A stretch of 64,000 bases of DNA. Source: Brachionus manjavacas. Taxonomy: Eukaryota; Rotifera; Eurotatoria; Ploima; Brachionidae. Position numbers and translations under genes: made by a program. The stretch covers positions 4,283,501 to 4,347,500 of the forward strand of contig JAHQIY010000007.1 in the NCBI GenBank assembly GCA_019054805.1. Reading direction: 5' to 3'. Within the stretch, counting starts at the first letter, position 1, and every line of letters begins with the position of its first letter. The notes below the pieces were generated by a model, which worked only from the letters and a program-made list of their open reading frames with translations, had not been told where the DNA came from and ran no database searches. This document shows positions 3,556 through 52,589 of this stretch, piece after piece.

Positions 3556-4639
3556 TTTTCAAGTAGCAAAAAATTATTCTCTACAAAATTTATGAAAAAT
3601 ATTATTTTTTCATGTTTTTTAAAAACAAACTTAGATTAATTAATTTCAGCCGAACCGTAAAGTATCAGCACTCTTGGCGGTAAGAAATAAAAAGTTTATG
3701 TTTAGATTAGCGTGTTGTTTGTGCAAAATTAAGATTATCCAAGACCATGTGTTTTTAAAATTTATTTTTATAGGCCTCAAATATTCACATTAAATGCTTA
3801 GTTTTGGAAAAAATTTGAAATTTTTCGCTTTGTTCATACCATGAGTATTTAATAACTAGTTGCAATATTGCAATAGATTCACTGGATTCATTTATTATAT
3901 AACTTAACAATCAAACTTAATTCGAGGTTTTTCAGAGATTAAAATTATTTTTTTCCAGCCAAAAAGGCTGGAGTAGATTTTTGTTGGACATAAATGGCCA
4001 AATTCAGTGTTACTCAGCGATACAACGACCTATATAAGCAGCCTAAAAACTTAAGCACATGACGCTTTGAAAATCTTTGAATTCACAATAGTTTGTTTTT
4101 TTTTTACTATAGCTTACTCTTTATTTGTACACGCAAAAGCTAAAAGCAACATAAATTTGTTTTGGCATAGAGTAGTGTTTATTGTTATTCTAAAAAACTT
4201 AAAATAAGAATTATGATAAAAAGCGATAAAATTTAAAATGCTTTAAATTTTTGTATCAAGGAGCATGGAACAGCAAATTGGGAGATTTGCCTGAATCTAT
4301 TTTAAATTTTTCTTTTAAATTTAAAACTTAAAAAAACTTTGTAGCCGAATTTTGCATTATTTACTTGGCCAGCCAAAAATAAGCTGAAATGAGCGAGTTT
4401 GGATGTTTCTAATTAAAACTTTTTTTTTAAATATTTTGAAATAAAATATTTTATAAAAATTAAATAAAATTTTTAAAAGTTCTGTTTTGAGAATAATTTA
4501 AAAATAAATGTGATAAATCTTTGCAAAATAATTTATCTAACTAACTGTTTCTTTGTTTATTGACTTGAGAAAATTTTTTGATGTAAAGGCTGAACTTTAT
4601 AAATTAAATTTTTATATTTAAAAAAATTGTTCGAATTGG
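3556..4639. other. Intergenic, no gene seen
   Basis: Spacer upstream of CLU. A slightly GC-richer stretch at 3645-3680, about 100 bp upstream of the CLU start codon, could belong to its promoter, but no TATA box stands out. The rest is A/T-rich without coding signal. Confidence 0.5.
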
Positions 4640-10795: not shown

Positions 10796-12025
10796 GATTA
10801 TCCTTTAAGGTTATTTTTAAAATGTATGTTATTTTTTAGTTTTTTCACTAAATTCTTGTATTTGGGTGAATTTTAATAAAACTTTTGAAATTTTTTATTT
10901 ATTTGCCAAGATTAATTAACAAATGTGATGAGACAATAACTTTGATCCCTTCAACTTATTAGAATAGAGAATATTCTAATTGTGAAAAATAACTAAGAAA
11001 TTTGATGGTTTTTTTCTTTTTTTTTAAAGTATCTTAATCATTCAAATAACGGGATTGAAAATCATTAAAATTGTCAGATATTGTAATAAAAATACAAAAT
11101 TCTTTTCAGGTTTTGTTATTAATTTTCATTAGATTCATTACAATTTGTGCTTTATTGAAATTGAATAAATGAAAAATGTAGAATTAAGTGCTCTCATAAT
11201 AAAAAATCTTGCCAATTATCAATGCAAAATTTCTTTTTATAAATATTTTGCTATTTTTATCTACATTGCGTATTTACCTAAAAAAATTAAAAAGTCTATT
11301 TAAAAAAAAAAATTCGATTTGAATTTTTCTGAAAAGAAAAGTAAAAGCCATGATCTCTTATTTTTAAAATAGCAGCCTATTATCAAAATGTCTATTATAA
11401 AAATATTTTCAGATTTTCCTCTAGATCAATGTCTTGAGAACTTAATCATAATGGAAAATTTAAAAAAAAAATCACTAGAATAATTGAGCCTTTGCTACCA
11501 AATAAGAAAATTTAAGATTCTGATATTTAATATTTAAAAATTGCTAAAATTGTTTTTTTACAGATAAAAATTTTAAAAAAAGACAACTAATAGTTAGATT
11601 AGAAAATTTAAAAAAAACGTCATATACTAATTCAAACTTAAAATTGGTTCATAAAAAAGGATGGTTAAGAATGAAGAATTTTTTATTTTTAATGAAAAAA
11701 TAAATGTATTTAAAATAAATTTTTTTGAGTCATGTTTTGAATTTTAGATTGTAAAATAGCTTGACAACAATTTAATTGAAACTTTTAAATTAGATTTTGA
11801 AATAGTTACTTTTATAACTTAAAATTAAAAGTAAAGTTCCAAGAATTCTAAACTTTTTATTTTCCATAAATTATTAAAAATGACTTTTTAAATAAAAAAT
11901 AAAATTTTAATTTATTATAAATTTTACAAATTGAAATAACCAAGAAAATCCTAAACAAAAAAATTCGAAATAAGTTTTTATAATCTAATTTTTATTTATT
12001 TTAAACATTTAAAACTTAAAACTCA
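10796..12025. other. Intergenic between convergent SP2 and SP3
   Basis: 1.2 kb of A/T-rich DNA holding the 3' UTR of SP2 and, on the other strand, that of SP3. No coding signal, RNA gene or repeat recognised. Confidence 0.5.
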
Positions 12026-13175
12026 TCAATTCAACATAGTTGTTTTTATCCAAAAAAGATACTGCGGAACAATTGCGTAAATACTTGGCGCTTTGTTATT
12101 ACAACGAAAAAAGGATTCCGGGTCTCTTAGCACATAGTTTGCCACGCCATACAATATCCACTTTTTCATTTCACCATCATAGAACATTAGTCCACTTCCA
12201 GAATCTCCAAAGCAAACATTTGCTTTATTTGGCGTCGGATCCAAAGCACATATATAATTTCCATTTACACTAAAATTTAATCTACAGTTTAAATCACTTA
12301 TTACTTGAAGCTTTGCCTGCAACATTTCGTTTGAAAGTTCTGAGCGACCATTGAATCCTGTTGTAGAGCCCCTGAAAATTAAATTATCTAGAATCAATTT
12401 AAATAGCAAGAATTTCTTAGAGCCTGTAGAGCAAAAAACCGAATACCAACCAGCCTGCTATGAATAAATATCTGTCATACAAAAATGTGTGTTCACTCGA
12501 GTCTGGCAAACAAATAGGCAATAAATCATCGGTAAAATTTAATGGTCTAGCCAGCTTTACTAGAGCAATGTCATTAATGCTAAACGTAGCACTGTACAAA
12601 GGATGGATAAAAATTCGAGATACATAATGGATATCTGTTGGACCAGGCTTTTGATCCAAATTAATGGTGCTTGTGATAAAAATATAATTTGACGCATCAT
12701 TTTGGAAACAATGAGCTGCAGTAAGTACATGCTGGGAGGAAATTATTGTTCCAGCACATTTGTATTGAAAATCATTAGAAGTATTGGAACGCAAAGATAA
12801 TATCCAAGGCCAGGAACCTTTTATTGCCGGTTGACCATTCATTATGCTGAAAAATAAATTGTTTTGAATATTATTTTTTGCTTTTCCACAAATTACTGGA
12901 GATGATGCATTAGATTTTGTGGTTTTTAAATCTTTTTTTCTTCTCAATACTTTAACTCTTATTATTTTTGTCACCAACTTTCTTACTGGTCTTATTTGTC
13001 TCAATGATTTTTGGTTTTGCAAATCAGCGGAAAAATTTGATTCTGTTGAGATTTTACTAGAACCTTTTTCGTTCGAATCAAAAATTGTCATAAAATTATG
13101 CGAACTAATTGCCCAAGAAAACAAGCAAAAAATGACCAAAAAAAATTTAATTCTTAAATTTTTAATAAAGACCAT
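12026..13175 (-). CDS. Secreted trypsin-fold serine protease SP3
   Basis: Two exons (13175-12451, 12371-12026; 79-bp intron with donor GTTGGT) give 356 residues. Signal peptide FFLVIFCLFSWAIS, Lys/Arg-rich pro-region (RKLVTKIIRVKVLRRKK), pro-region Cys (VICGK), then the mature domain. The expected R-IVGG activation site is replaced by S-IMNGQ, so activation must differ from that of SP1 and SP2. The triad is present (LTAAHC, NDIALV, CFGDSGSG); the residue before the last Gly is Ser instead of Gly, and position 189 is Asn. From the activation site to the stop, intron included, it is nearly identical to SP4, while the pro-region is not. A TATA-like box (GTATATAAAA on the minus strand, 13210-13201) lies only about 30 bp before the start codon. 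Confidence 0.9.
12040..12860. repeat. 821-bp near-identical tract shared with 21732-22552
   Basis: By eye this segment differs from the SP4 segment by about three substitutions and no indel. It covers exon 2, the intron and exon 1 up to the activation site. Similarity stops abruptly at both ends: outside the stop codon, and inside exon 1 just upstream of the codons for FFSIMNG. The pattern fits gene conversion or a recent recombinational exchange between paralogues. Confidence 0.85.
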
Positions 13176-16917: not shown

Positions 16918-19330
16918 TTTTGCAGTATAGATATTTCTTTCTACACTAACGATCAAAAGCGTTTAGCCTTATAAACTAGGGCTTTGGAAGACTTTGCTTT
17001 TCACCATTCCAAAGACTTCATTGTCAATGACTGCTTTGAAGCCATTTATTGTTTGCGCACTAACAGTATTAACTGATAAACTGTTCCATAATTTTACGCA
17101 GCGATTTGTTAAGAAATTATATTTTAAAGAGCCTCTCCGATTTATTTCTCGGACTAATCTATTGTCATGTGGTCTTCTTAGGCTTTTTACACCGCAAGCG
17201 AAATTGATGCCATTTGTTAACGTTACTTTTTCAAAAACTTTAAAAATTTTGTGTATTTGAATTAAATCTCCCTTAAACCACGATTTTCAAGTTTCATAAG
17301 ATTTAAGTTTTTCAATCTTTCTTCATAAGACTTGGTTCTGGTATAATCATTCAGTTTTGTCGCTCTTCTTTGCACTTTTTCAAGAATAATAATGTCTTTT
17401 TTTAAATACGGATTCCAGGTTTCTACTGCATACTCCAGATGGGGTCTCACAAGTGATGTTTAGAGAAGTCTTAATGAATCTCGGCTAAGGTTCTTAAAAG
17501 AATTTCTTATTTGACCCAGTATTCGGTTAGCTTTCATAGCTGCTACAGTACATTGTTTATTTCATTGCGGTCGTCTTTTTTGATAATGGTCGTATTCTAT
17601 TTTAAAGGAGTTCACGGTCTTAGTTGCGACTATGTCGTCTGGCAGTTCGTTCCATGCATTAGCTATCCGATTGATGAAGAATTTGTGTCTTTGCTGACAA
17701 GATGCCACGATCTCACACCGTAGTTGACTTCTCTTTGTGTCTCTTCTCTTAATTTTAAGTCGTCAGCATATCCAAGACAGAAACTGTTGAGGCTCTCAAG
17801 GAGATCATTGATATAAATTATAAATAGGATTGGACCAAGTACGGATCTTTGTGGTACTCCGCTTTTAACTACTTTCCAATTTAATACATCATTACCTAAT
17901 ACAACTCGTTGTACCAGCCCAATCAAAAACGACTCAATCCAGCTTAGAAGTTTACCATTTATACCATTTGATTCAAGTTTTATTATCAATTTTCCATGCA
18001 AAACTTTATCAAAACACTTTGATAAGTCAGTATACACATTGTCAAAATTTTTGCCTTTTTCATATTCATAAGTTGCTTTATCAATGAACTCTAATAGGTT
18101 TGTTGCACATGATCTGTAAGGAAGAGACCCGGGCTGTTAATTAGATATTAAATTGTATTCTAGTAAATAGTTCATTACCTCATCCCTCAGCATTCTTTTC
18201 ATTACCTTGCCGACTATTGAAGTAAGTGAAACCGGTCTATAATTTTTGATATCGATTTTTGATCCATTTTTATGAATTGGAGATACATTTGCTTTCTTCC
18301 ATAATTTTGGTAGTTCACCCTCATTAAACTATTTTATAAATATCAATGAAAGTACCCATGAGATTCCTTTATAGCAATTTTTACATGGATAGACAATGAG
18401 ATCAAACTTTTAAAAAATCATTTTCCTTTCTCTACTTTTTGTACCTTTTCAAAATATTAATTTATTTGGCCCTGTTCCTTTTTGTACTTTCTGTACTTTT
18501 TGTACTTTTTCTAATTAATTCGGGTATGCTGAAGGTAAGAAAAATATTAGTTAAATATAAAATTTATATTTAAAATATTGATTAATAAAAGGTTTTTTTA
18601 TTACCATTAAGAACAAAAAGTACAAAAAGGAACAGGGCCAAAAAAAATAATATTCTGAAAAATTACAAAAAGTCCAGAAAGTACAAAAAGGATAAGGGCC
18701 AAATAAATTAATTAGAAAAAGTACAAAAAGTACAGAATGGATTTTTACTTTTAAATAATTTCATTGTCTATACCTCTTTTCTCTGGCTTAAAGATGACGT
18801 CCGGGTTCAATATCAGCAATCTGACTGTTCTTTTAGGAAAATTAATATCTCTCTCGGTTTCACTCGGCAAGTTGAAAACCAATTTAAAAAAGTCATTTAT
18901 TATTTTTACAATATCTTTATGTTCTGTAATTAATTTTCAATCAACTTCAATAGCATCAAGCTGACTTCTAGTTTTCCTCTTACTATTTATGTAGTTATAA
19001 ATAAGTTTCGGTTTTTTTTGAGTGTTTTGCCAAGAATAGTTCGAAGTCATGGACAGCTTTTCTGATTGCTCTCGAGCATTTATTTCTAGATTTTTTATCT
19101 GATGAAAACAAAAGATTAGTTTTAAAATTTGTCTCCTTGAATCTATACCAGAGCTTATTTTTTTATTTAACCATCTGCTTGATTTTAGTGTTAAGGCACT
19201 TCGGCCTTGTTCTGTTTTTTCTTGAGCTTTTATTTGGAGAATTGCGCAATGATATCCAATTAAGTTCTTATGTGAATATATCATATATTTGACTTGAGTC
19301 CATATTCTAAAAAATTTTAGCCCAGTCATG
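16918..19330 (-). mobile_element. LINE-2: degenerate CR1-like retrotransposon, 5' truncated
   Basis: From 19330 downward the minus strand shows the ORF2 linker (KKPKLIYNYINSKRKTRSQL), then RT blocks: LWKKANVSPIHKNGSKIDIK with NYRPVSLTSIVGKV, YTDLSKCFDKVLHGKL, SGVPQRSVLGPILFIIYIND and GYADDLKL, then the C-terminal MRPHLEYAVETWNPYLKK and LEKVQRRATK. Several stops and shifts (for example after LISN) make it inactive. It is related to, but clearly diverged from, the LINE at 23.4-27.5 kb. A TA-flanked MITE interrupts it at 18393-18768. The endonuclease domain and ORF1 are missing. Confidence 0.88.
18393..18768. mobile_element. TA-flanked fold-back MITE nested in LINE-2
   Basis: Ends read GACAATGAGAT and, inverted, ATTTCATTGTC, flanked on each side by TA. 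Inside, long inverted repeats built from TTTGTACTTTTTGTAC and GGCCCTGTTCC face one another, so the whole 376 bp can fold into a hairpin. No coding capacity. The LINE-2 reading is interrupted exactly here, which makes the insertion younger than LINE-2. Confidence 0.75.
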
Positions 19331-21717
19331 ATTCGTCTTTTATGACTAAGAAATTTGCTTTAATATTTATTGAATAAAACAAAGAAACTAAAATTAAAAT
19401 ATCCTGTTCAAAAAAAATTATGGCCATTTTATTTTATTCCAAAATGTAATAATTTTAAATTGATGTTGTTTTAATCAAATTGAAATCAGTGACTCGAAAA
19501 CTGAGTATTTAAAAAAAAAATATTTAAGCAAAATTTAACTGACAAAAAAATTAAACTTTAATAATTAAATACAAAGTATTATCTATAAATGAAAATTACC
19601 ATTGTTTTATTTAAAAACGCAATTCCAGGGTAGTTGTTCGCTTATAATTTAAAACTAAATCATATTATTTTATATCTCATTTAAATTTATTAAGAGGCTA
19701 AATTTCTAATTCATATAATTTAAAATTTTTTAAATATTTTGGATTTATTTAGAAATTCAATTAAAGGATAAATTAGATACTTTTTTAAAGCTTTTTCAGA
19801 AATTTTTTGGTTTAAATTATGTAGTAGAACAATAATAGCTTTTAGACAAGGAATTGAACAATCTGCAGTGATTCGAAAACTGAGTAAAAAGGTTTAAAAA
19901 GTTAGTTGGCGTAAGTGGTCAATTATTGTTTAAATTTTTTATTTAAATTTTTCTCTTTTTTTTTCTTTTTAATTCTTTAACGATATCCATCTTAACTATC
20001 TACTTAAATTATTTTATTTTATATCTCGAAGGAACCACATTACTAAGCTAACTTAGTTTTTTTTAATTAAAAAATTGGAATTTACATTTATAATTTAAAA
20101 CATAATCATTACGAAATTAATTTTTAGTCTGAGTATATGAAAATTTGATTGAACTGTTTATTTATGAATTTTTTTTTGAAATTAAATAAACTCGAACAAT
20201 TATTCAATTTCCTAAAGTTAAAAATTTTATTTAAAGAATTTAAATACTAAATCAGATACTATATTCGATTTTCAACACTTGTTGCGATTCAGATCTGCAT
20301 CTATCTCTTTAGTAATTTCGGATGAATTAAAGACTCCAAGAGAGGCCAATGAAGACTTTTGGCTCACAACGTGCTAAATTTAATTTAATTTTGATATTAC
20401 TCTTATCGTTAAATAATAGTTGTTATCATTATTTATATGAATAATTGCAGAATAAGACATTTTTGATTAATGGAACATTTTTTAATTTTAATTTATTAAA
20501 CAAGATTTTTTAAGTGTCAAAAAAATTCAGGTATTTTTGTTAATTAAAGATTTTATCTTTCAAAATCATTTAAAGTGTTAAGAACATGTTTTTTTTTTTA
20601 GTTTACAACTTTTGGAACCTTAGAAAACTTGTAATTTTTACCTAAAGAATTTTGAGAAGTTATTTAAAGGAATAAAAATCACTTTTTCCGCTAATATTAT
20701 GAATTCTTTTTAAGATATTAAAATTAAAAAATTTCCTTTTAAAATGATAATGTCTAATGCTTTCAAACTGTCATACATCAAAAATAAGAACTATTCATTC
20801 AAAGAAAAAAATCTCAGTACTCTAAATTTCTTTAAAAAAAACTATCCTCAACTGAATAATTTTTTACTCAAATTTATTATTTTAAGGTATTGTTTTCCAA
20901 ATAATAAAAAATTTATGTAGTGCTAAAAATCTAATAATTCTAAAAATAAATTCAAAAATTTCTATTCATGTTAGATAATTACAATTTTATTAAAAAAAAA
21001 TTCAAAATATTGATTCATTTAGAAAAAAATAAAAATGAAGTTTTTTTTATAGAGATTTTTACCAGAAACACTGCACAAAAAATCAATTTTATTTTATTTA
21101 TTTTTTAATTTTAACAAAATTAAGTTGAACACTTTTTTTTTATATCAAATGAACCTCTAAAACAAATAAAAAAAAATATTTATTTTGAATACGTTTTTTC
21201 TTATTTTCAAATTTTCTACACGCAATACCAAAAGCTCTGTCTCGAAATTCATATCATTTTGTGCAAAGAAATAAATTTAAAGTAAATTACCCAACACTTA
21301 TTAAGTAAAAAAAAGATCTATTAATGGTATTTAAATATGTTTAGATAAAAGACGAATTTTATTTGGACAAAAACGTAATTTAAAAACTTAGCTTATAAAC
21401 AGGCTCTTTAGATCGAATTGATTTTTTAAACCGGTTTGGCTTATTGAATCGGTTTTTCAATCGGTTCTACTTATTAATGGGTATAAGGAAAAATCTGTTT
21501 AAAACCGGTTTTTAATGAACGGGTCTACCAGTCAGGACAGAAATGAAACCAGAAGGTAATTTAATTGTCAGTGCTTGCTGATTTTGACTGCTGAATTATT
21601 TCAGCAAATGATAAGTTATTAAAATATAAAATTTAGGGATTTTTGTGAGGAATAATTAATATATAATCAATTTAATTCTGATTTTGTTCTAATAAAAAAT
21701 TTTCATTTTGATTTTTT
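19331..21717. other. Intergenic, no gene; one 82-bp repeat and CCGGTT boxes
   Basis: Mostly structureless A/T-rich DNA. It holds an exact 82-bp copy (19590-19671) of sequence found upstream of SP4 and SP5. Near 19489 and 19868 the pentadecamer-like GTGA(C/T)TCGAAAACTGAG occurs twice. Around 21430-21510 there is a cluster of (A/G)AnCGGTT boxes. No reading frame is convincing. Confidence 0.55.
19590..19671. repeat. 82-bp exact repeat, copy 1 (others 23057-23138, 28253-28334)
   Basis: Begins TGAAAATTACCATTG and ends AAATCATATTATTTT. It appears identical at all three positions. Copies 2 and 3 lie about 165 bp upstream of the start codons of SP4 and SP5 and are part of the 1.1-kb duplication; copy 1 stands alone, with unrelated flanks. 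Confidence 0.85.
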
Positions 21718-22893
21718 TCATAAAGTCATCATTGTTTTTATCCAAAAAAGATACTGCGGAACAATTGCGTAAATACTTGGCGCTTTGTTATTACAACGAA
21801 AAAAGGATTCCGGGTCTCTTAGCACATAGTTTGCCACGCCATACAATATCCACTTTTTCAATTCACCATCATAGAACATTAGTCCACTTCCAGAATCTCC
21901 AAAGCAAACATTTGCTTTATTTGGCGTCGGATCCAAAGCACATATATAATTTCCATTTACACTAAAATTTAATCTACAGTTTAAATCACTTATTACTTGA
22001 AGCTTTGCCTGCAACATTTCGTTTGAAAGTTCTGAGCGACCATTGAATCCTGTTGTAGAGCCCCTGAAAATTAAATTATCTAGAATCAATTTAAAAAGCA
22101 AGAATTTCTTAGAGCCTGTAGAGCAAAAAACCGAATACCAACCAGCCTGCTATGAATAAATATCTGTCATACAAAAATGTGTGTTCACTGGAGTCTGGCA
22201 AACAAATAGGCAATAAATCATCGGTAAAATTTAATGGTCTAGCCAGCTTTACTAGAGCAATGTCATTAATGCTAAACGTAGCACTGTACAAAGGATGGAT
22301 AAAAATTCGAGATACATAATGGATATCTGTTGGACCAGGCTTTTGATCCAAATTAATGGTGCTTGTGATAAAAATATAATTTGACGCATCATTTTGGAAA
22401 CAATGAGCTGCAGTAAGTACATGCTGGGAGGAAATTATTGTTCCAGCACATTTGTATTGAAAATCATTAGAAGTATTGGAACGCAAAGATAATATCCAAG
22501 GCCAGGAACCTTTTATTGCCGGTTGACCATTCATTATGCTGAAAAATAAATTAGCATTTAAGTTTTTTTCTGCCACACCACATTGTTTGATAGATTGGCC
22601 GCGACGTGTTGTAATATCCTCCTTTGTTGTGATTGTGGTTTTTGCTGCCTTGGTCTTTTTAGTCCTTGTACGTTTTATTCTGATTATTTTTGTTACCAAC
22701 TTTCGCTTTGGTTTTTTTGTCTTACTGAAATTAAACTTATCAAAGATGAGTTCAGGTCTTTTGGAACTTGAATTGCTGAAGAATCAATCAAAGTTGAATT
22801 AACAAAAGATAAAAACTGACTTGAATTTATAACTAATAAAATCAAGCAAATAGCAATTAGATTAATATTGAATTTAAAATTCTTATAAACCAT
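21718..22893 (-). pseudogene. Serine protease SP4, complete but frameshifted
   Basis: Exon 1 (22893-22143) and exon 2 (22063-21718) give the same architecture as SP3: signal peptide (INLIAICLILLVINSSQ), Lys/Arg-rich pro-region (RKLVTKIIRIKRTRTKK), pro-region Cys (QCGVA), activation site S-IMNGQ, and the triad LTAAHC, NDIALV, CFGDSGSG. At about 22711-22717 a run of seven T replaces the eight T found in the SP5 copy, shifting the frame between signal peptide and pro-region. With one base added, the joined exons would be in frame (366 codons). It may be a pseudogene or a homopolymer error. The catalytic half is nearly identical to SP3. Confidence 0.85.
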
Positions 22894-23381
22894 AATTAAA
22901 ATCTCAAGTATATTTTTCTTTTCTAATTTACGGTTTTTTTTTTATTCATCCATGTTGTCTCGGTTCATTTTTGAAAACTTGAGACAATGTCTCGTGTTGA
23001 CTAAAATTGATTCATTACTAAAACAATGAATCGCAACATCACGTTTATTTGACGTCTGAAAATTACCATTGTTTTATTTAAAAACGCAATTCCAGGGTAG
23101 TTGTTCGCTTATAATTTAAAACTAAATCATATTATTTTTTTGGAAATGAATATTTTTAATAATAGCTTTTTTTTGAATATTATATTTCATTTTAAAGAAG
23201 AAATGATATATTTTTTATGTTTAAAAAATTATTTTTGTTTTTTTTTATAAAAATCGAAAAAGAAAAAATGTCAAAATTTTTTAACAAAAATTCAAAAATT
23301 CTTCCATGTTTTTAGTCAATAAAAAAAATTTTAAAATAATTTTCAAAATTAAACAAAAGCCTTGTTATCTGATGAATAATA
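22278..23381. repeat. 1.1-kb direct repeat, copy adjoining the LINE 3' end
   Basis: 1,104 bp matching 27471-28575 (1,105 bp). The differences I can see are homopolymer lengths only (T7/T8, T10/T12, T8/T6). It contains the first half of SP4 and about 490 bp upstream of it. Its right end abuts the (TAG)n tail of the LINE exactly. Confidence 0.92.
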
Positions 23382-23457
23382 GTAGTAGTAGTAGTAGTAA
23401 TTATAATTGCTACGCTTTCGCGTTAAGTCCGGTTATATCCAGACCATAAGCAATAAT

Positions 23458-26453
23458 TTAGTCTTTCAAAAGTATGTCTAAATTAGTTTTAAAAATGTTT
23501 GTTGATTTTGATTCTATAACTTTGTTTCCAAGCTGATTCCAATCATTGACTATTCTGTTGGTGAAAAAGTTGAATCTTGGTGCACAGTTTTTGACAATTT
23601 CTCTTCTTAATCTGTAGTTGTTGCCTCTTGTTTTATTTACACCAAAAACCTTGTCTGGTTGTTTATACCAGTTGACTTGATCGTAATTATTGAGCAACTT
23701 AAACATTTGTATTAAATCACCTCTCTTTCTTCTTGTTTTAAGTGTTGTAAGTTTTAGCCTTCTTAGTCGTTCTGGATACTCTAGATTCGATAAACCTGAG
23801 ATAGAACGCGTTGCTCTTCTCTGAACCTTTTCAAGCGCATCAATGTCCTTCTTTAGGTATGGGTTCCATGCCGAAACAGCAAACTCTAAATGAGGCCGAA
23901 CCAGACTCTTATACATCTTACAAATAACGTTCTCACTGCGATTACTCAAGCCATTTAAGACTAACCCCAAGATTCTATTCGCTCTTGAAGCCGACGTGCT
24001 GACCTGCTTACCCCATTTCATATCACTTGTCACCATTACGCCCAAATCCCTTTGCTCGGTTGCAACTGCTAACTTCTGAACACCTTTGCTGCTTGAAATA
24101 AAAAATTCGTTTTTCGGATTGTTTTTGCCAATATGCATTATCTCACACTTTTCGATATTAAGGCCCATTGACCACTCCCTACACCATTTCACTAGCTCGT
24201 CAATATCCGCTTGAAGCTGCTGTTTCATCAAGTTTTCATTGGTTTTATTGAAGACGCAATAGATCTTACAATCGTCCGCGTAAAGTGAGCATATGCTCTT
24301 GAATCTATCGGGAAGGTCATTAATAAAAATCACAAAAAGTAATGGACCGAGGACTGAACCCTGTGGAACTCCACTCGTAACTTCTAGCCACTCAGATGTT
24401 GAATGACCAAGAACAACACGCTGCTTCCTACCAATCAAAAAGGATTCAATCCACCTGTGTAAATTACCACTGATACCATAATGTTTCAACTTGTGGAGGA
24501 GTTTATGATGATTTACTCGATCAAACGCCTTCGAAAAGTCAGTATACACAATGTCGATGTTATTGCCCTTAGAAAGCTCCGTTGTTATCAAGTCAAAACT
24601 CTCCAAGAGATTTGTGGTACAAGATCTCTTAGGCATAAAACCGTGTTGAAACATACTGATCAATCTATTATGAGTCAAATGATCAATTATGACTTTCCGA
24701 ATGATTCTTTCCGTGATCCGACAAACTATTGAGGTTATGGACACGGGTCTGTAGTTGTTAACATTGCATCTATCACCTTTCTTAAAAATAGGAGTCACAT
24801 ACGCTCTTTTCCAAACCTCTGGGACCTGTCCTGTTGTCAACGAACTCTTCATTAATAGTGATAAAGGAACACATATAGCATCCGCAGTCATCTTCAAGAA
24901 GTAAGGATTAACACCATCGAAACCTGTGCTTTTGGATACATTTAAGCCTTTCAAGTGTCTCAAAACAATCAGCGGAGAAATGTCCGTGTTTATGTTGAAC
25001 TCGCATACTTTTTCACTTCTATGTAGAAAATTCGGTGGTTCATCAACGTTGTTATTGAAAACCGAATGAAAAAACTCATTGAAAATTCTGACTATCTCAT
25101 CACGATTGCTGGTGATTGAACCATCGGACCGTTTAATTGAGTGAATTGCTGGCTTTACGTTTAGCTTTTCATAAAAATACTTAAAAATCATTTTTGGCTG
25201 TTTGGCATGTTTTGCTAGTCGTGCCTCAAAGTCACTAACTGCCGACTTGATTTTACGCTTAATTTGATTACGAACACGCCGAAAATTTTCCAAAATACTA
25301 CACCTCAAACTTCTTTTTCCGCCAACTAGCTTCTTCCATAAGCAATACTTTTCTTTAATTAGCTTCTTGATTCCATTATTCATCCACGGCGGCTGTTTTT
25401 TACGATTTTGACCAGCAATTCGTTTCGGTACGTACATCTTACAAGCACACTGATATAATCTGAGAAAAACTTCGTACATTTCATTAACACTCAAGTTCTT
25501 AAAACTTCTAATCCAGTCAATACTTTTGAAAAACTTAGAAATTAAAAAATAATTTCCTCTTCGGTAATTAAACAAGACACTGTGAAACAAAACTTCTCCA
25601 TCATCATCTTCATTTAAATAATAATAACTCCATGCTATGCTTAAATGGCAACGCTCCAGATTACTTAAACCAGGGCCAGTACTCAAATTTGCTACTCTCG
25701 CATCACTCTCGGTTAAAATCAGGTCCAAAATAGACTTATTGCCATACTCGTTTGTCTGAAAAGTTGGACAGTCTACATTTTGCATTAGAAAACAATCTTC
25801 GATTGCATTAACCAGCTCAAGTTCTTCCTTCCTAGCACCTTGACCAACACTCCATTCTCCATTTTCATACCAACATATATTTGGACTATTAAAATCCCCA
25901 CAAATTAAAAGCCCACTTACCTTTTTTGATTCAAATAGTTTCCTCGCACAAAACAAACTTTCTCTTACTTCATCAATCGATTCACTGATATAAGGACAAT
26001 AAATGCAACCAATAAGAAGGCGTTCTCTTCCACATTCTAATTTACACCAAACCTCCTCCACCGAAAAATGAGTATCTAATACCAAATCAACTTCAACCAC
26101 TTTTATATCTTTCTTTTCGTAGATACACACCCTCCACCTCTCTTGTTAGCTCGCCTGTTCTTATGATAGCATTCATAGCCCTCTATATAAGTTACTGACG
26201 CTTCATCAAACCACGTCTCGGTCACAAATAAAATATCATATTCGTAAGTATGGCTTAAAACTTTTAGCTCGTCCAATTTGTTCCTGAGTGATGTGGCATT
26301 CGTATACCAACACTTAAGCTCTTTGTATTTCGATCTTGAATCACGCATGGAATTATAATTAGAAATATTATTGCTTTCCAACTCTGTATGATGTGGATCT
26401 CCCGCGAAACCCACCTCTCGTACTCCCCGTTTGATTTCTCCGCCCATTTTCAC
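23458..26453 (-). CDS. LINE-1 ORF2: AP endonuclease and reverse transcriptase (one frameshift)
   Basis: Begins MKMGGEIKRG (26453), overlapping the end of ORF1 by about 86 bp. Endonuclease motifs in order: TNATSLRNKLDEL, DILFVTETW, GGG-CIY, LLICGDFNSPNICW, SILDLILTE. The usual SDH catalytic motif appears as ERCHLSI. RT motifs: KSTGFDGVNP, VNNYRPVSITSI, YTDFSKAFDRVNH, SGVPQGSVLGPLLFVIFIND, LYADDCKIY, then RPHLEFAVSAWNPYLKK and VQRRATRS, ending at 23458. The frame breaks near 26131 in the GGAGGG run between the two endonuclease parts; one extra G would restore it. The protein would otherwise be close to 1,000 residues. It mediates target-primed reverse transcription. Confidence 0.92.
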
Positions 26454-27405
26454 TACCCCGATACGTTTCTCTCCGTCTGTTCTTTTCCTCCTCCGTCAGT
26501 ATCTTAACCCTTACAATTTTCCCGTTCAATATTATCCACTTGTATCCGGTCTTATCTCTCTCTTCTGCAATGTTCAAGTTATTCTTTTCTTCCCTCAATT
26601 GCTTCTCAAAAACCCTCTCAGCCTCAGTTAAGTCCGCATTTAAATATACTTTTTCATATTTTCTATCGATTCTGTGGAGTCCTCTCGCCACTGAGAGCAC
26701 TTCACTACGGTCTCCAGCACTTTGTAGCTCAACTAAAATCGGCGGTATTTTACTCACATCGTTAGATTTGTTCTTGAAACGAGTAATACTTCTTATGGTC
26801 GATTTTTTAACCTTTAAAGCGTCAAATATTTCTTCAATCCTCGATTCATCTTCCTTCTTCCGATCATCACCCTTTTCACTTCTCGATAATTCAATACCAT
26901 GAATAATCAAATTCCTATTCTTCGATTCTCGTTCTCTTTGTTCCACCATAACACTATTTACCACATTTATCTCAACAGGTTGTTGAGGAGGCACCGGTTC
27001 GTTAGTTTTCCCTCTAATGGATTTCAAAACTGCCGATTTGTAGCAAAGATTAGTTTTTGCAATTAACTCTCCACTTTCATTGATCTCTTTACTAATTTCG
27101 TTAATGAAATTTTGATTGTTACATCTACAGTTACAGCGTAAATTTTCGATGTTACCAAGTCGCTCTGTCAACTCTCTGATCGTGTTACTCAGGGTTCGAA
27201 TTGTCGCATCCTGCTGCTCCACTCTTAATTGTAAACTAAAAATTTTCGACGTTGCGCTCTTCATTCGTTCGAATTCGTCCGACTCAATCTTCTTGATCTC
27301 GGGCGACTGATCCATATGTTCGCTATTTCTCGTCTTTTTGGGTCTTATCGTATCATTGAGGTTTGGAATCGGCTGGCTGGCAACCGGCGTTCCAAATTCG
27401 TTCAT
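26368..27405 (-). CDS. LINE-1 ORF1: RNA-binding chaperone-like protein
   Basis: 345 residues starting MNEFGTPVAS. A coiled-coil region (about 50-90, RVEQQDATIRTLSNTIRELT) is followed by a Cys cluster (LRCNCRC), an ORF1p-like RNA-binding domain beginning RNLIIHGIELS and ending near AEERDKTGYKW, and an Arg/Gly-rich tail (TRGGFRGRSTSYR). No CCHC zinc knuckle of the usual spacing is seen. The layout suggests trimerisation and RNA binding, as for other LINE ORF1 proteins (inference). The frame is intact. Confidence 0.85.
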   Translation of the reverse strand: MNEFGTPVASQPIPNLNDTIRPKKTRNSEHMDQSPEIKKIESDEFERMKSATSKIFSLQLRVEQQDATIRTLSNTIRELTERLGNIENLRCNCRCNNQNFINEISKEINESGELIAKTNLCYKSAVLKSIRGKTNEPVPPQQPVEINVVNSVMVEQRERESKNRNLIIHGIELSRSEKGDDRKKEDESRIEEIFDALKVKKSTIRSITRFKNKSNDVSKIPPILVELQSAGDRSEVLSVARGLHRIDRKYEKVYLNADLTEAERVFEKQLREEKNNLNIAEERDKTGYKWIILNGKIVRVKILTEEEKNRRRETYRGSENGRRNQTGSTRGGFRGRSTSYRVGKQ

Positions 27406-27470
27406 ATTATGAATAATTTGTAATTTCTAATTTTTTTTCAATTATTTATTTGTTAATTTAAGTTGTTTTT

Positions 27471-28087
27471 GTAGCACTGTACAAAGGATGGATAAAAATT
27501 CGAGATACATAATGGATATCTGTTGGACCAGGCTTTTGATCCAAATTAATGGTGCTTGTGATAAAAATATAATTTGACGCATCATTTTGGAAACAATGAG
27601 CTGCAGTAAGTACATGCTGGGAGGAAATTATTGTTCCAGCACATTTGTATTGAAAATCATTAGAAGTATTGGAACGCAAAGATAATATCCAAGGCCAGGA
27701 ACCTTTTATTGCCGGTTGACCATTCATTATGCTGAAAAATAAATTAGCATTTAAGTTTTTTTCTGCCACACCACATTGTTTGATAGATTGGCCGCGACGT
27801 GTTGTAATATCCTCCTTTGTTGTGATTGTGGTTTTTGCTGCCTTGGTCTTTTTAGTCCTTGTACGTTTTATTCTGATTATTTTTGTTACCAACTTTCGCT
27901 TTGGTTTTTTTTGTCTTACTGAAATTAAACTTATCAAAGATGAGTTCAGGTCTTTTGGAACTTGAATTGCTGAAGAATCAATCAAAGTTGAATTAACAAA
28001 AGATAAAAACTGACTTGAATTTATAACTAATAAAATCAAGCAAATAGCAATTAGATTAATATTGAATTTAAAATTCTTATAAACCAT
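27471..28087 (-). pseudogene. Serine protease SP5, truncated by the LINE
   Basis: Identical to the first half of SP4 (signal peptide, Lys/Arg pro-region, QCGVA, S-IMNGQ, LTAAHC), but with the eight-T run that keeps the frame open. The coding frame ends seven or so codons before the catalytic Asp block, at FIHPLYSAT, where the LINE 5' end begins and adds KTT-stop. It lacks the catalytic Asp and Ser, so it cannot be an active protease. It retains its own copy of the SP4 upstream region. Confidence 0.9.
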
Positions 28088-28575
28088 AATTAAAATCTCA
28101 AGTATATTTTTCTTTTCTAATTTACGGTTTTTTTTTTTTATTCATCCATGTTGTCTCGGTTCATTTTTGAAAACTTGAGACAATGTCTCGTGTTGACTAA
28201 AATTGATTCATTACTAAAACAATGAATCGCAACATCACGTTTATTTGACGTCTGAAAATTACCATTGTTTTATTTAAAAACGCAATTCCAGGGTAGTTGT
28301 TCGCTTATAATTTAAAACTAAATCATATTATTTTTTTGGAAATGAATATTTTTAATAATAGCTTTTTTGAATATTATATTTCATTTTAAAGAAGAAATGA
28401 TATATTTTTTATGTTTAAAAAATTATTTTTGTTTTTTTTTATAAAAATCGAAAAAGAAAAAATGTCAAAATTTTTTAACAAAAATTCAAAAATTCTTCCA
28501 TGTTTTTAGTCAATAAAAAAAATTTTAAAATAATTTTCAAAATTAAACAAAAGCCTTGTTATCTGATGAATAATA
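27471..28575. repeat. 1.1-kb direct repeat, copy adjoining the LINE 5' end
   Basis: Second copy of 22278-23381. Left edge GTAGCACTG abuts the LINE 5' end; the right edge GATGAATAATA is two bases before a hAT MITE. The two copies and the LINE fit together as repeat-LINE-repeat with no extra bases. Confidence 0.92.
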
Positions 28576-34166: not shown

Positions 34167-34875
34167 CCTTTTATCTTATAAATATAAGTAAAGTTTTAAA
34201 CAATTTTTTACTGAATAATAATCATAAAATTGGATTATACTGAAAAAGTAATGATTGTCAAAGTTTTGCACAAAATTTAGATGATTTTGTTATGATTTTC
34301 TAAGTAAAATTTCTTTGATTGGCAACGAGCTGAGAACAGCATGAAGAGAAATAAAACTTTAAGGTTAATGGGACGTAAACCCAAAAATTGACTCAAGACT
34401 TTTGTTTTTTTATTAGTTAAAATTACTAAGTTGTAAATAAAATTTCCATTTTTGACTTTATTTGACTTTTTTTGACTTTTTTAACCGAAAATAACAATAT
34501 TTTACGTAAATTTTGGTCAAAAAAAAAATTCGATTTTAAAAACTTTCAATGAAAAAAAATAAAAAAGATTTTTTTTTTACGGAATTTTCGATTTTACAAA
34601 AATTTTGGCAATTTTGTGTTTGACCAAATTTGACTAAAAATTACGTAAAAAAACGTTAATTTTCGAAATTTTACGTCAAATGACGTTTTCAAGAATTTGT
34701 CATTTCACGTAATTTATCGTCAAATTTGGTGAATTAACGTAATTTTACGTAAAATATTATGAATTCATCGTATTATAGCAGCACTGTAGGTGAAAGTATA
34801 CGGAGAGATGTTTAGAATATTTCTATAGTTTTCTATAGCTTGTAAAATATAATTTAAATATATTTTTTTAAGAGT
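34167..34875. other. Intergenic with an ACGT-rich patch
   Basis: Between about 34480 and 34760 the tetramer ACGT occurs repeatedly (TTTACGTAAA, TTACGTAAAA, AACGTTAA, TTACGTCAAATGACGTT, CACGTAATT), far above what this A/T-rich background would suggest. It ends at ATAGCAGCACTG (34786), whose complement CAGTGCTGC looks like a hAT terminus. Possibly a decayed transposon. Confidence 0.4.
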
Positions 34876-46500: not shown

Positions 46501-49500
46501 ATGATGAAAAGTTTGATAGAGAACGAGTGCGCGGGCCAAAACTCGCTTGTCAGACTGGCATCGCATTTTACGAATGCGAGCGAGTCGAATGCGGTGCGCA
46601 ATCTAAGATCACTTGATCTAGGTCCACAGCTATCCAGTGACAGTTTGGTCGACGAGTACTTGAGCATGGAACATCAGACTCGGGTCGAAGCGCCAAGGAC
46701 TTTTCACATGGAAACTTTGTTCAATGAAATCAAATGCATTGACAAGTCGGTTCAGCCGAATTCATGCGGTACTGGCAATCAGGACTGGTCACGTGACATT
46801 TTGTGGGACTCGATCAGAAAACAGGCTTCCAGTGCCAAAGATTTTCAATGGTCAACTGAATACCTTGCCCAGAATGAGTCTAATATTTTGGACGAAACGT
46901 ATTTGGGAAATTAAATTTTTTTTTCTTTACTAAATTTTTTTTAAGATGGGAAAATATGATGGTAAAAAATGCCAAAAATCCCAACGAAATGTTCATTCAA
47001 AATTCGATTTCAAATGGTTTTGTTAAAAATACTGACTCGCTAATAGCTACAAATCAGTTAAATGAAGAAATGAGAAAAACAGTAAACGAACTACTTGATT
47101 CAATGCAGGACAGTCGATTTTCCGAAACAGAGGTAAGTCAATCATGCAGTTTTTATTTTGGTTGAAAATTTTAGAGTGACTTTTACTTACTTACAATTTT
47201 TTTAATTTGAATTCAATGAGATTTCGCCTTTTTTAAAGAGAATTATTGTTTTTTTCCAGATCTAATTTTTAAGGATAAAAGGTCCTTTGTTAGCTGAAAC
47301 TAATTTGGAAAATTAAAATTTATTTATAAAATTTCATCATTTTATGTCTATTTATAAAAATAAAATTATATAAAATGGCTTAAAATTGAATTAGCAAATC
47401 TTTTAAAAAAATAAAAAACAACAAAAATCTTTATAAGTAAAAAAAATTCAAAAGAATCAAAAATTTGCTCAACCAAAATCTCTTCTTTTATTCATCAAAA
47501 AACTAAGTTTTTCACAAATTTTGTCTCTTTGCTTGATTTTGGTTGTTGGTCGGTTAACTTTTTTTTCCTCAATTGAAAAACCTTTTGGTTCAGTTTCGCT
47601 AATGAGACTAATTTCTAATATTTTTCACGGTAATTAACTCATTTTTAAAAAAGCGAAAAATTTTTTTAGTACGAGACAATAAAAATTGACTAATTTTCAT
47701 CCCCGACACTAACTATTAACTTATCAATTGACTAAGTCAAAAATAAATTTTTAAATAATTATTAAAAAAACTTTTAAGAGGTGCTTTTTTCTCTTAATCT
47801 AATTTCTAGTAAAACAAAGTTAAAAAAATCTTTAATTATCTTTATTTTAGCAGATTATACGGTTTTAAATTTCCAGAAAATTACGAGTTATTTCATTTGT
47901 TAATTAATAAAAAAATATTACTTTATAATTAGAAACAAATTTATAATTTTTTTCACCTTTTCTGATTTATTTGAAGAAAAAAAAAACAAAAAAAAAAACA
48001 GTTAATGATTATCTTAAGAGAAGTCTTTCTGCGTATGATGTAACATCTAGAAAAAATTTAGAATAAATTAATAAATAAAGAGAAAATTTTAAATTCATTA
48101 ATATTTAAGAATGTAAGATAGTTTATTTTTTTATAAAATATACGAATATTTTTAAATCTCAATATTGAAATTATTAATTTAAATGACATAGCTTTTAGCG
48201 AGCGAGAATAATTTATTTCTGTTTTGAAATTATAATTAATAAAATATGTAAAAATCTACAAAGTTAGAAAAAAATTTAATTATTTTCAACCAAAGATAAA
48301 ATATTGCCTTTTTTAGAGCTTAAGTTCAATTAAACAAGCTTGTGTTATCTATTTCTAAATAGAAGACTAGATCATTTATTAGTAGATTATTAAAAAAAAA
48401 ATTATTTTAAAAATTTTGTCAAAATTATATTTAATTAAATTGAAGCAAGAAAATACAAATTTCTATTTCAATTAAAAAAAAAATTTAAAACAAAAAAATT
48501 ATTTTTAATAAAAAAAGTTAATTAAAAAACAATAATTTCTACAATTTTTTTTGTTTAAATCAGGTTTATGTTACTAAAAATTGAAAGCTTAATAGAAAAG
48601 CAACTTGTTCTTATTAAATTTGAATATTCATTTTTTTTCCATTTGGCCATCTGTTGTATTTGACTATCACTCTTTTTTAAATTATATTTTAAATTTATTT
48701 TTGAGTCATTTTTAATTTATTTTTCCCTTATATTTACAGGTGAGTTAAAATCAATTATTTTAAGTTAAAAGTAGTAAACCATTATTTTCTAATATTTAAA
48801 TAGTTTTTATTAAAAAGTTATTTAAACCATCAAAATAAAATAAACTAAAGCTGTTCGCTTAAGCATAAGCTTAAAGATACATATTTAATACAACTTTAAA
48901 GATTTTTTCTTTTAGCATAAAAGAGAACAGTAAAAAGCATGTTTTTATGGTTGAATAAAGGTTTTAAAAAACTGAACTAACCAGATAGAAAAGTCTTTTA
49001 AAAGGGAAAAACAATATTTTTTTCCATTAAAGTTAAATTTAAATCAACTTTTTTTAAATAAAATTTGAATTATCTCTTAAACATGAATTCAGTTCAACTT
49101 TAGCAGAAACTTTTTAACAAATTTTGTTATCATTCTGCAATATTTTCCTTTTCCATCAAAATTCAAATCTATTTGAAAAGATTTTTATTTCATTTTACCT
49201 TAAATTTATATGTTTTTTTTAAGTAAGAATAATATTTTTTTTGACATATCTAAAATACTTTTAATCTTTTCATTCACTTAATTTTTTTTTGAATTGTTTA
49301 ATTAATTTTCATTTACTAATAGCCTTCCAATAATCAAAATTCAAAGTGAGCATAAATTTCATAATTAATTTTTCATGAAAAAAATAAACCTAAATATTAA
49401 AAAATATACACAAGCTTTGTATGTTGATTATCAAAAGATTATTAATAAATGAATGATAATTAAAAAATTAAAAAAAAATACAACTGAGAAAAATGCCATT

Positions 49501-51027: not shown

Positions 51028-52589
51028 ATTGATCAACAAAAAAAGATTTTTTTCTTGTCTTCAAAATTTCAAGTAATTTCCAGTAAATACTCCTGAATGG
51101 GCGATGGTGCGCGATATTCAGACATTTTTTTTAAAGTCTGTCATGCTCAAGAAAGTGATTGTTATTTTGAAATTTCCATTTTTTTATATATATTTAAAAC
51201 CGAGTGCAACTCAATTATTTTTTTTAAAAAAAAAAAACCTACTAAAAAAAGCCAAAAAAAATCAAAAATTAAAAAACCAAAAAAAAGGCTTATTTTATCG
51301 TCCGATTATTTTATTTTTTTTTTTATGGACAGAGTTTTATGGTCAAGAGTGAGCTCATCAGACAGAGTATATGGAATAATTTGTTATTAAAAAAAAAATA
51401 AAGCAAAAATTTATTTTATTGTTAACCTTGATGCTTGAATTATTCACAAGAATGGAAGAAATGGATGCTTGTGAAAATATAACAACGCTAATTTGTTCCG
51501 TTTATTTTTTTATTTATTATAAAACAGATTTTTTTTTTGAGTACATTTTTTGTGTATCGTCTGCTACTGCTTCTATTTGTCCTATTTTCAATTTATTTTC
51601 ATCTTTGTTCTTTTAAGCCTATATAATCAGTATTTTTGTTGATTTTTGTTTTACTTGAAATTTTGAAATAATTTGTAACAACAGTTTAAACATCAAACTA
51701 AAAAACACAATAAAAACAAGACCAAAAAAAAACGAATAAAAAAAAGAAAAAAATCTTAAAAAAAATTAACAAAACCAAAATCGAATTTTTTTAATTATTT
51801 TAATCCAGTCTACAATACATTTAAAAAAATTGATGAAATCACAAAAAGAGCTTATTAATTTATTTACCAATTCTAGTTAATTTGAAGCCACATGGACAGA
51901 ATAATATTTATAGAAAATAGAAAGTAGAAAAAGTTAAATTAAAAAATAAGAAATAAAAATATAGGATTAGATAATATATTTTCTCGGAAAATTGAAGTTC
52001 ATGATCAAATGTAAATTTCAAATCAAAATTTTTAGTTTTTGATTCAAATAAAAAGGCATTTTTTATCAATTTTTTAATAAAAAATAAACTTTTTTTTAAC
52101 ATTATCTGTTTAGTCAATAATTAGATAGAAAATTAAATGAATTTTTATCTGAAGTAAATTAAATGCTTAATCAATATTTTGAAATTTTACAATACAAAAT
52201 TTAACTTTGTTTCGCCGTAATATAATTTAATTGATATTAAAATATCATTTTAAGCGTATAATTTGGATACCTAAATGTCGATTTAAATTTGACTTTAAAG
52301 TTTCCTAATAAAGATTTTAGAAGAGTCAATTAAAGGTCAATTAGAGAGAAAAAGATTTGTTTTTTTTTTAAATTAAAATAATAAACTTCTTATGTTTAAT
52401 TTAAAAAAATTAAAAAAATCTAATTTAATCATTTTTACTAATATTTTAATCAATTAAATTTTGATCATTTGATTATGATCATGAACTTCAAGTTGCCTAT
52501 TTTCTCTAATCAAATTAAAAGCAAAATCTGGATTGAAATGAAAATCCATTTATTTGTTATTCTAATCCTCGAAATTCATTTGTGAATTT
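51028..52589. other. Intergenic, no gene seen
   Basis: PEX5 3' region with several A-rich runs and AATAAA-like sites (for example near 51400), then A/T-rich spacer. Apparent frames here are poly-Lys or poly-Phe artefacts of homopolymers. Confidence 0.5.

Follow-up and report, generated by a model that had tools for sequence, protein, structure and literature searches.

According to previous studies, target-site duplications (TSDs) made by LINEs of the L2 and CR1 clades are usually 3-5 bp long (PMC4245944), and a TSD of over 20 bp has been defined as a long one (L-TSD) (PMC2666801). In the part of the latter report that deals with wild-type chicken DT40 cells, a 1,228-bp TSD was described in one of 25 inserts of ZfL2-2, an L2-clade LINE of zebrafish (PMC2666801). 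For human L1, the published passages on cells deficient in nucleotide excision repair give TSDs of more than 100 bp in 4/7, 21/23 and 22/28 inserts, 18 of these large TSDs being longer than 1 kb, while large TSDs were found in 3/9 inserts in complemented cells and in at most 10% in HeLa cells (PMC5223499). In the same passages, the authors took the view that large L1 TSDs could duplicate exons, but that recombination between the repeats would make them short-lived (PMC5223499).

In the window, i.e., the whole stretch of 64,000 nucleotides of Brachionus manjavacas DNA that was analysed, a LINE lies between two 1.1-kb direct repeats. Judging from the sequence, duplication and insertion very probably represent a single event, namely a long TSD made by one LINE insertion. 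The features concerned are as follows:

22278-23381, minus strand: copy A of the proposed TSD, downstream of the LINE (in LINE orientation), with 488 bp upstream of a start codon and 616 bp of coding sequence
23382-27470, minus strand: LINE, near full length, near-identical to at least 29 other copies
23382-23399, minus strand: LINE 3' tail, with (TAC)n as its sense sequence, directly against copy A; most other copies read end alike
27471-28575, minus strand: copy B of the proposed TSD, upstream of the LINE (in LINE orientation), with 488 bp upstream of a start codon and 617 bp of coding sequence

The insertion resembles the ZfL2-2 case in being flanked by a TSD of equal size class (1,228 bp); however, ZfL2-2 was an engineered element in cultured cells, and the inserts reported there mostly carry short TSDs (PMC2666801), whereas most rotifer copies carry no clear one. 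The human L1 data, as far as the passages on large TSDs go, come from mutant cultured cells and another LINE clade (PMC5223499), whereas the rotifer case is found in the assembly of an animal genome. The L1-bridged tandem duplications described in cancer likewise have a LINE at the junction of a direct duplication, but those covered by the passages concerned are of megabase scale and somatic (PMC7058536). Given the published kilobase precedents, the rotifer case fits a known, rare class. The R9 rDNA retrotransposons of bdelloid rotifers, associated with the 2009 work of Gladyshev and Arkhipova, reportedly have a 126-bp TSD. They are thus said to share with the present element an exceptionally long TSD made by a rotifer LINE, but reportedly differ in being site-specific in rDNA with a set TSD length, whereas the sites found here are unlinked and the lengths vary widely. 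In the passages on Brachionus covered here, nothing like a long-TSD case is described, although absence from print does not follow. Long TSDs are rare but not new; what is added here is two rotifer examples from one genome assembly. The example in the window appears to have duplicated the first part of a gene and left a complete, though frame-split, gene downstream. Kilobase TSDs in the literature covered here come from cultured or tumour cells, whereas two long TSDs are now found in an animal genome assembly, where a young set of copies in a small genome makes their rate and consequences countable.

Self-BLAST and global alignment of the two repeats gave 1,102 identical bases, no mismatches and three indels between the 1,104 bp of copy A and the 1,105 bp of copy B. 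Each indel lies within a T run (copy-A positions 22712, 22934 and 23167; 1, 2 and 2 bases), in agreement with the first-pass annotation, according to which the copies appear to differ only in homopolymer lengths. The LINE, 4,089 bp in length, fills the space between the repeats with its tail adjoining copy A and its 5' end adjoining copy B. Its earlier description as abutting both repeats without spare bases proved exact to the base. At each repeat edge, the next base outward is not the same in the two copies, which fixes the edges in place, and zero bases are shared at the junctions.

The 1.1-kb repeat has six matches in the 114-Mb genome, which are the two copies themselves and four shorter pieces: 275 bp in a protease paralogue (12586-12860), 82 bp at 19590-19671, and two weak ones on other contigs, covering 64-82 query bases with 77-81% identity. 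The possibility that the flanking repeats are a dispersed repeat or an LTR was rejected, since the genome search finds local copies and small pieces. The 82-bp piece is identical to a segment of the DNA upstream of the protease gene (23057-23138 and 28253-28334); it sits 3.4 kb from copy A, and no further match to it was found in the genome. The window has a single further long direct repeat, the 838-bp protease paralogue pair 12023-12860 versus 21718-22552 (98.9%), which does not adjoin both LINE ends.

The element between the repeats has the following coding capacity:

26368-27405, minus strand: ORF1, 345 aa, with no Pfam match at E 0.001
26103-26453, minus strand: front part of ORF2, in another frame, as ORF2 is frame-split in the window copy
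23458-26130, minus strand: long part of ORF2, 890 aa, with endonuclease (PF14529, E 8e-9) and reverse transcriptase (PF00078, E 2e-38) domains

The endonuclease and reverse transcriptase domains, together with a 3' tail at the priming junction, identify it as a non-LTR retrotransposon; it lacks LTRs, and its dispersed copies nearly all have a common 3' end and many different 5' start points. It may belong to a CR1/L2-like clade, as the general appearance of ORF2 and its microsatellite tail would suggest. The frame of ORF2 is open in another copy, and the best relative of the protein among the matches listed (7,995 candidates scored) is a Brachionus calyciflorus protein that is 39% identical over the whole query. 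The true 5' end of the LINE is settled in part only: the window copy is 51 bases longer than the next longest, and in a 129-bp copy (L040) the 5' junction is adjoined, near 1400-1419, by 20 bases that match LINE positions 6-25 in antisense, possibly a 5' inversion.

The duplicated stretch consists of the first part of a trypsin-family gene (Pfam Trypsin) and the 488 bp upstream of its start codon, in line with the first-pass annotation, which had seen half a protease gene, with the region upstream of it, in the repeat. Three protease features are needed here:

21718-22893, minus strand: SP4, full-length protease locus, made up of copy A and the left flank, frame-split at a T run in the assembly
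27458-28087, minus strand: SP5, open but truncated protease, matching Trypsin profile positions 1-84 of 220, followed by LINE-derived residues and a stop
12023-12860, minus strand: protease paralogue, 98.9% identical to 21718-22552, continuous across the second breakpoint

SP5 was previously described as in-frame but truncated, which agrees with an open frame that runs into LINE sequence and stops. Judging by motifs, we take the truncated copy to keep the region of the catalytic histidine and to be missing those of the aspartate and the serine. SP4 had been called full-length but frameshifted; the first part stands, as its pieces match Trypsin positions 1-127 and 129-220, whereas the frameshift may be an artefact. 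In the assembly, the frame past the T run near 22712 is out of phase with the start codon of SP4, but all three differences between the repeat copies are homopolymer lengths, with no substitution, so an error in sequencing may account for the frame split. When copy B was used in a protein search, seven hits were obtained; three of them are close relatives, at 61-69% identity, and are uninterrupted across the second breakpoint, as would be expected of an undisturbed locus. Together with the continuity of the paralogue, this indicates that copy A with the left flank is the normal continuation of the gene. As to an empty site, these relatives and the paralogue are continuous over the second breakpoint as other genes, not as alleles of the locus. 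The paralogue and 21718-22552 share about 835 bp, are identical inside the TSD part and diverge sharply beyond 12860/22552; the pair appears to be a recent gene conversion or duplication.

With no substitutions in 1,102 bases, the divergence between the two repeats is bounded at about 0.27%, and the nearest long LINE copy is identical at 4,036 of 4,039 positions (two mismatches and one gap). The lack of mismatches and the near-identical long copy together indicate that the event is recent, as had been suggested before.

The set of sister copies comprised at least 30 LINE copies at 96% identity or more, including the one in the window, drawn from the best 40 of 230 and the best 40 of 77 candidates. 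Flanks of at least 2.7 kb per side were read for 20 copies and of 1.4-1.6 kb for nine, while about 4 kb was used for the window copy. Such a survey for long flanking duplications, which the first-pass annotation had envisaged, yielded a second, unlinked case, in which a 5'-truncated LINE copy of 671 bp (L024, C2:140443-141113) lies between 374-bp direct repeats. These repeats are identical at 373 of 374 positions, the sole difference being a substitution, and the 5' junction has one extra T. A query with 244 of the 374 bases found its two local places and no further one among the best 40 of 119 candidates, which were mostly LINE copies. Long abutting repeats are thus present in two of the 30 copies (6.7%, 95% interval 0.8-22%), a rate that rests on two cases. 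Repeats of more than 20 bp abutting both LINE ends, i.e., L-TSDs, were found with lengths of 1,104/1,105 bp, 374 bp and also 28 bp; the last, in L020, is exact, and at its upstream end it shares 11 bases with the start of the LINE as delimited by BLAST.

Of the other 27 copies, the 18 tested for short matches had none longer than 9 bp near the junctions, a length that may arise by chance, and the nine copies with shorter flanks had no abutting repeat of 14 bp, the shortest length tested, or more. TSDs reaching beyond the fetched flanks were searched for with 3' flanks of about 90 bp from 26 of the 27 copies without a repeat of at least 28 bp (L027 was left out). Among the best 40 of 932 and the best 40 of 1,286 candidates, where weaker partners could be missed, no near-identical direct partner lay beside the LINE, while the copy's own locus was recovered in all 26 cases. 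For L018, a partner of the flank with 92% identity lies at a distance of about 11 kb, but in inverted orientation, and repeat families hold the flanks of L009, L010, L014, L029 and L043. L018 also contains a 221-bp direct repeat (941-1161 and 2262-2482, 99%), away from the LINE and among further repeats. The putative nick sites have no tested motif in common.

As for the route by which a single insertion would have duplicated the target, a distant second-strand break, rather than template switching, is the one towards which we lean. Its two breaks are placed by the edges of the proposed TSD:

between 28575 and 28576, no strand assigned: putative first-strand nick, at which reverse transcription would start
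between 22277 and 22278, no strand assigned: putative second-strand break, inside the coding sequence

The endonuclease would nick one strand of the trypsin-family gene locus, 488 bp upstream of the start codon, and the LINE RNA would be reverse transcribed from this nick (target-primed reverse transcription). The break in the other strand, which would normally be a few bases away, would then lie at a distance of about 1.1 kb, within the coding sequence; the newly made DNA would be joined to this break by its 5' end, and filling of the long gap would duplicate everything between the two. Such a duplication would leave a complete gene with its own 488 bp upstream on the 3' side of the LINE and a truncated copy on the 5' side. 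One event is supported by the exact abutment, the unslidable edges, the 3' tail and the near-identical, mostly 5'-truncated sister copies, and also by the local nature of the long repeats, the close relatives that read through the breakpoint, the recent age of both LINE and repeats, and the published 1,228-bp precedent for the length. The giant TSD that the first-pass annotation had raised as a question gains support from the 374-bp case and these relatives. What counts against it is that 28 of the 30 copies lack such a duplication and most lack a clear TSD, so the usual second-strand behaviour of the family is not established by these copies.

The same LINE event could also have followed another, rather unlikely route, in which the free cDNA end, at a point about 1.1 kb downstream, pairs with or invades the sister chromatid or a break in that chromatid. 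Repair would then copy back through the stretch and give the same LINE-bridged tandem duplication. Its final sequence would be identical to that left by a distant second nick, and a passage on a 22.6-Mb L1-bridged duplication in a tumour proposes such a route (PMC7058536). However, at the window junction the 5' end of the LINE shares no microhomology with the target, although direct joining needs none, and no sequence feature requires this route.

It is highly improbable that the 1.1-kb tandem duplication came first and that the LINE was later inserted exactly at its junction, although the protease cluster does hold another recent duplication or conversion (12023-12860 versus 21718-22552). Edges independent of the LINE ends would then be expected, whereas they coincide to the base in the window and, in L024, to within one base at the 5' end. 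A junction would also have to be struck to the base twice, here and at C2:140443, against which the random-insert control speaks: when 20,000 pseudo-inserts were placed at random in the window and in 20 fetched loci, three had abutting repeats, and all three are the genuine 374-bp pair of L024, judged by their lengths and the 1,046-base spacing. Direct repeats of at least 300 bp at 85% were absent from 215,529 bases of 29 fetched loci, apart from that same pair. A duplication made by the LINE event itself would predict an unlinked case of like geometry, whereas a LINE that met a chance tandem duplication would not. An assembly artefact, e.g., two haplotypes joined around a LINE insertion, is likewise highly improbable. 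The structure here is known from assembly sequence, and its copies differ by homopolymer lengths alone, but a misjoin has no reason to land exactly on both LINE ends, and the 374-bp case of equal form differs by a substitution.

If one insertion with a long TSD is the correct reading, recombination between the repeat copies could restore the empty site, so such alleles may be reversible, and the window locus offers a testable, possibly reversible allele. A wider proposal, which we put forward tentatively, is that LINE insertion in this rotifer, via loosely placed second-strand processing, may be a recurrent low-rate source of local gene duplications, with sizes from hundreds to thousands of bases. 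Target alterations would then be mostly nil or a few bases and rarely huge, and thanks to a long TSD a complete gene would remain even where an insertion reaches into coding sequence.

Elsewhere in the window, the remains of another, older reverse transcriptase element lie on the minus strand at 17663-19329, and self-comparison gave imperfect inverted repeats (67-83%) at 18389-18771, 34620-34733, 49283-49478 and 52353-52421. Finally, we also identified a gene encoding PEX5, the product of which is 98% identical to Brachionus plicatilis PEX5.
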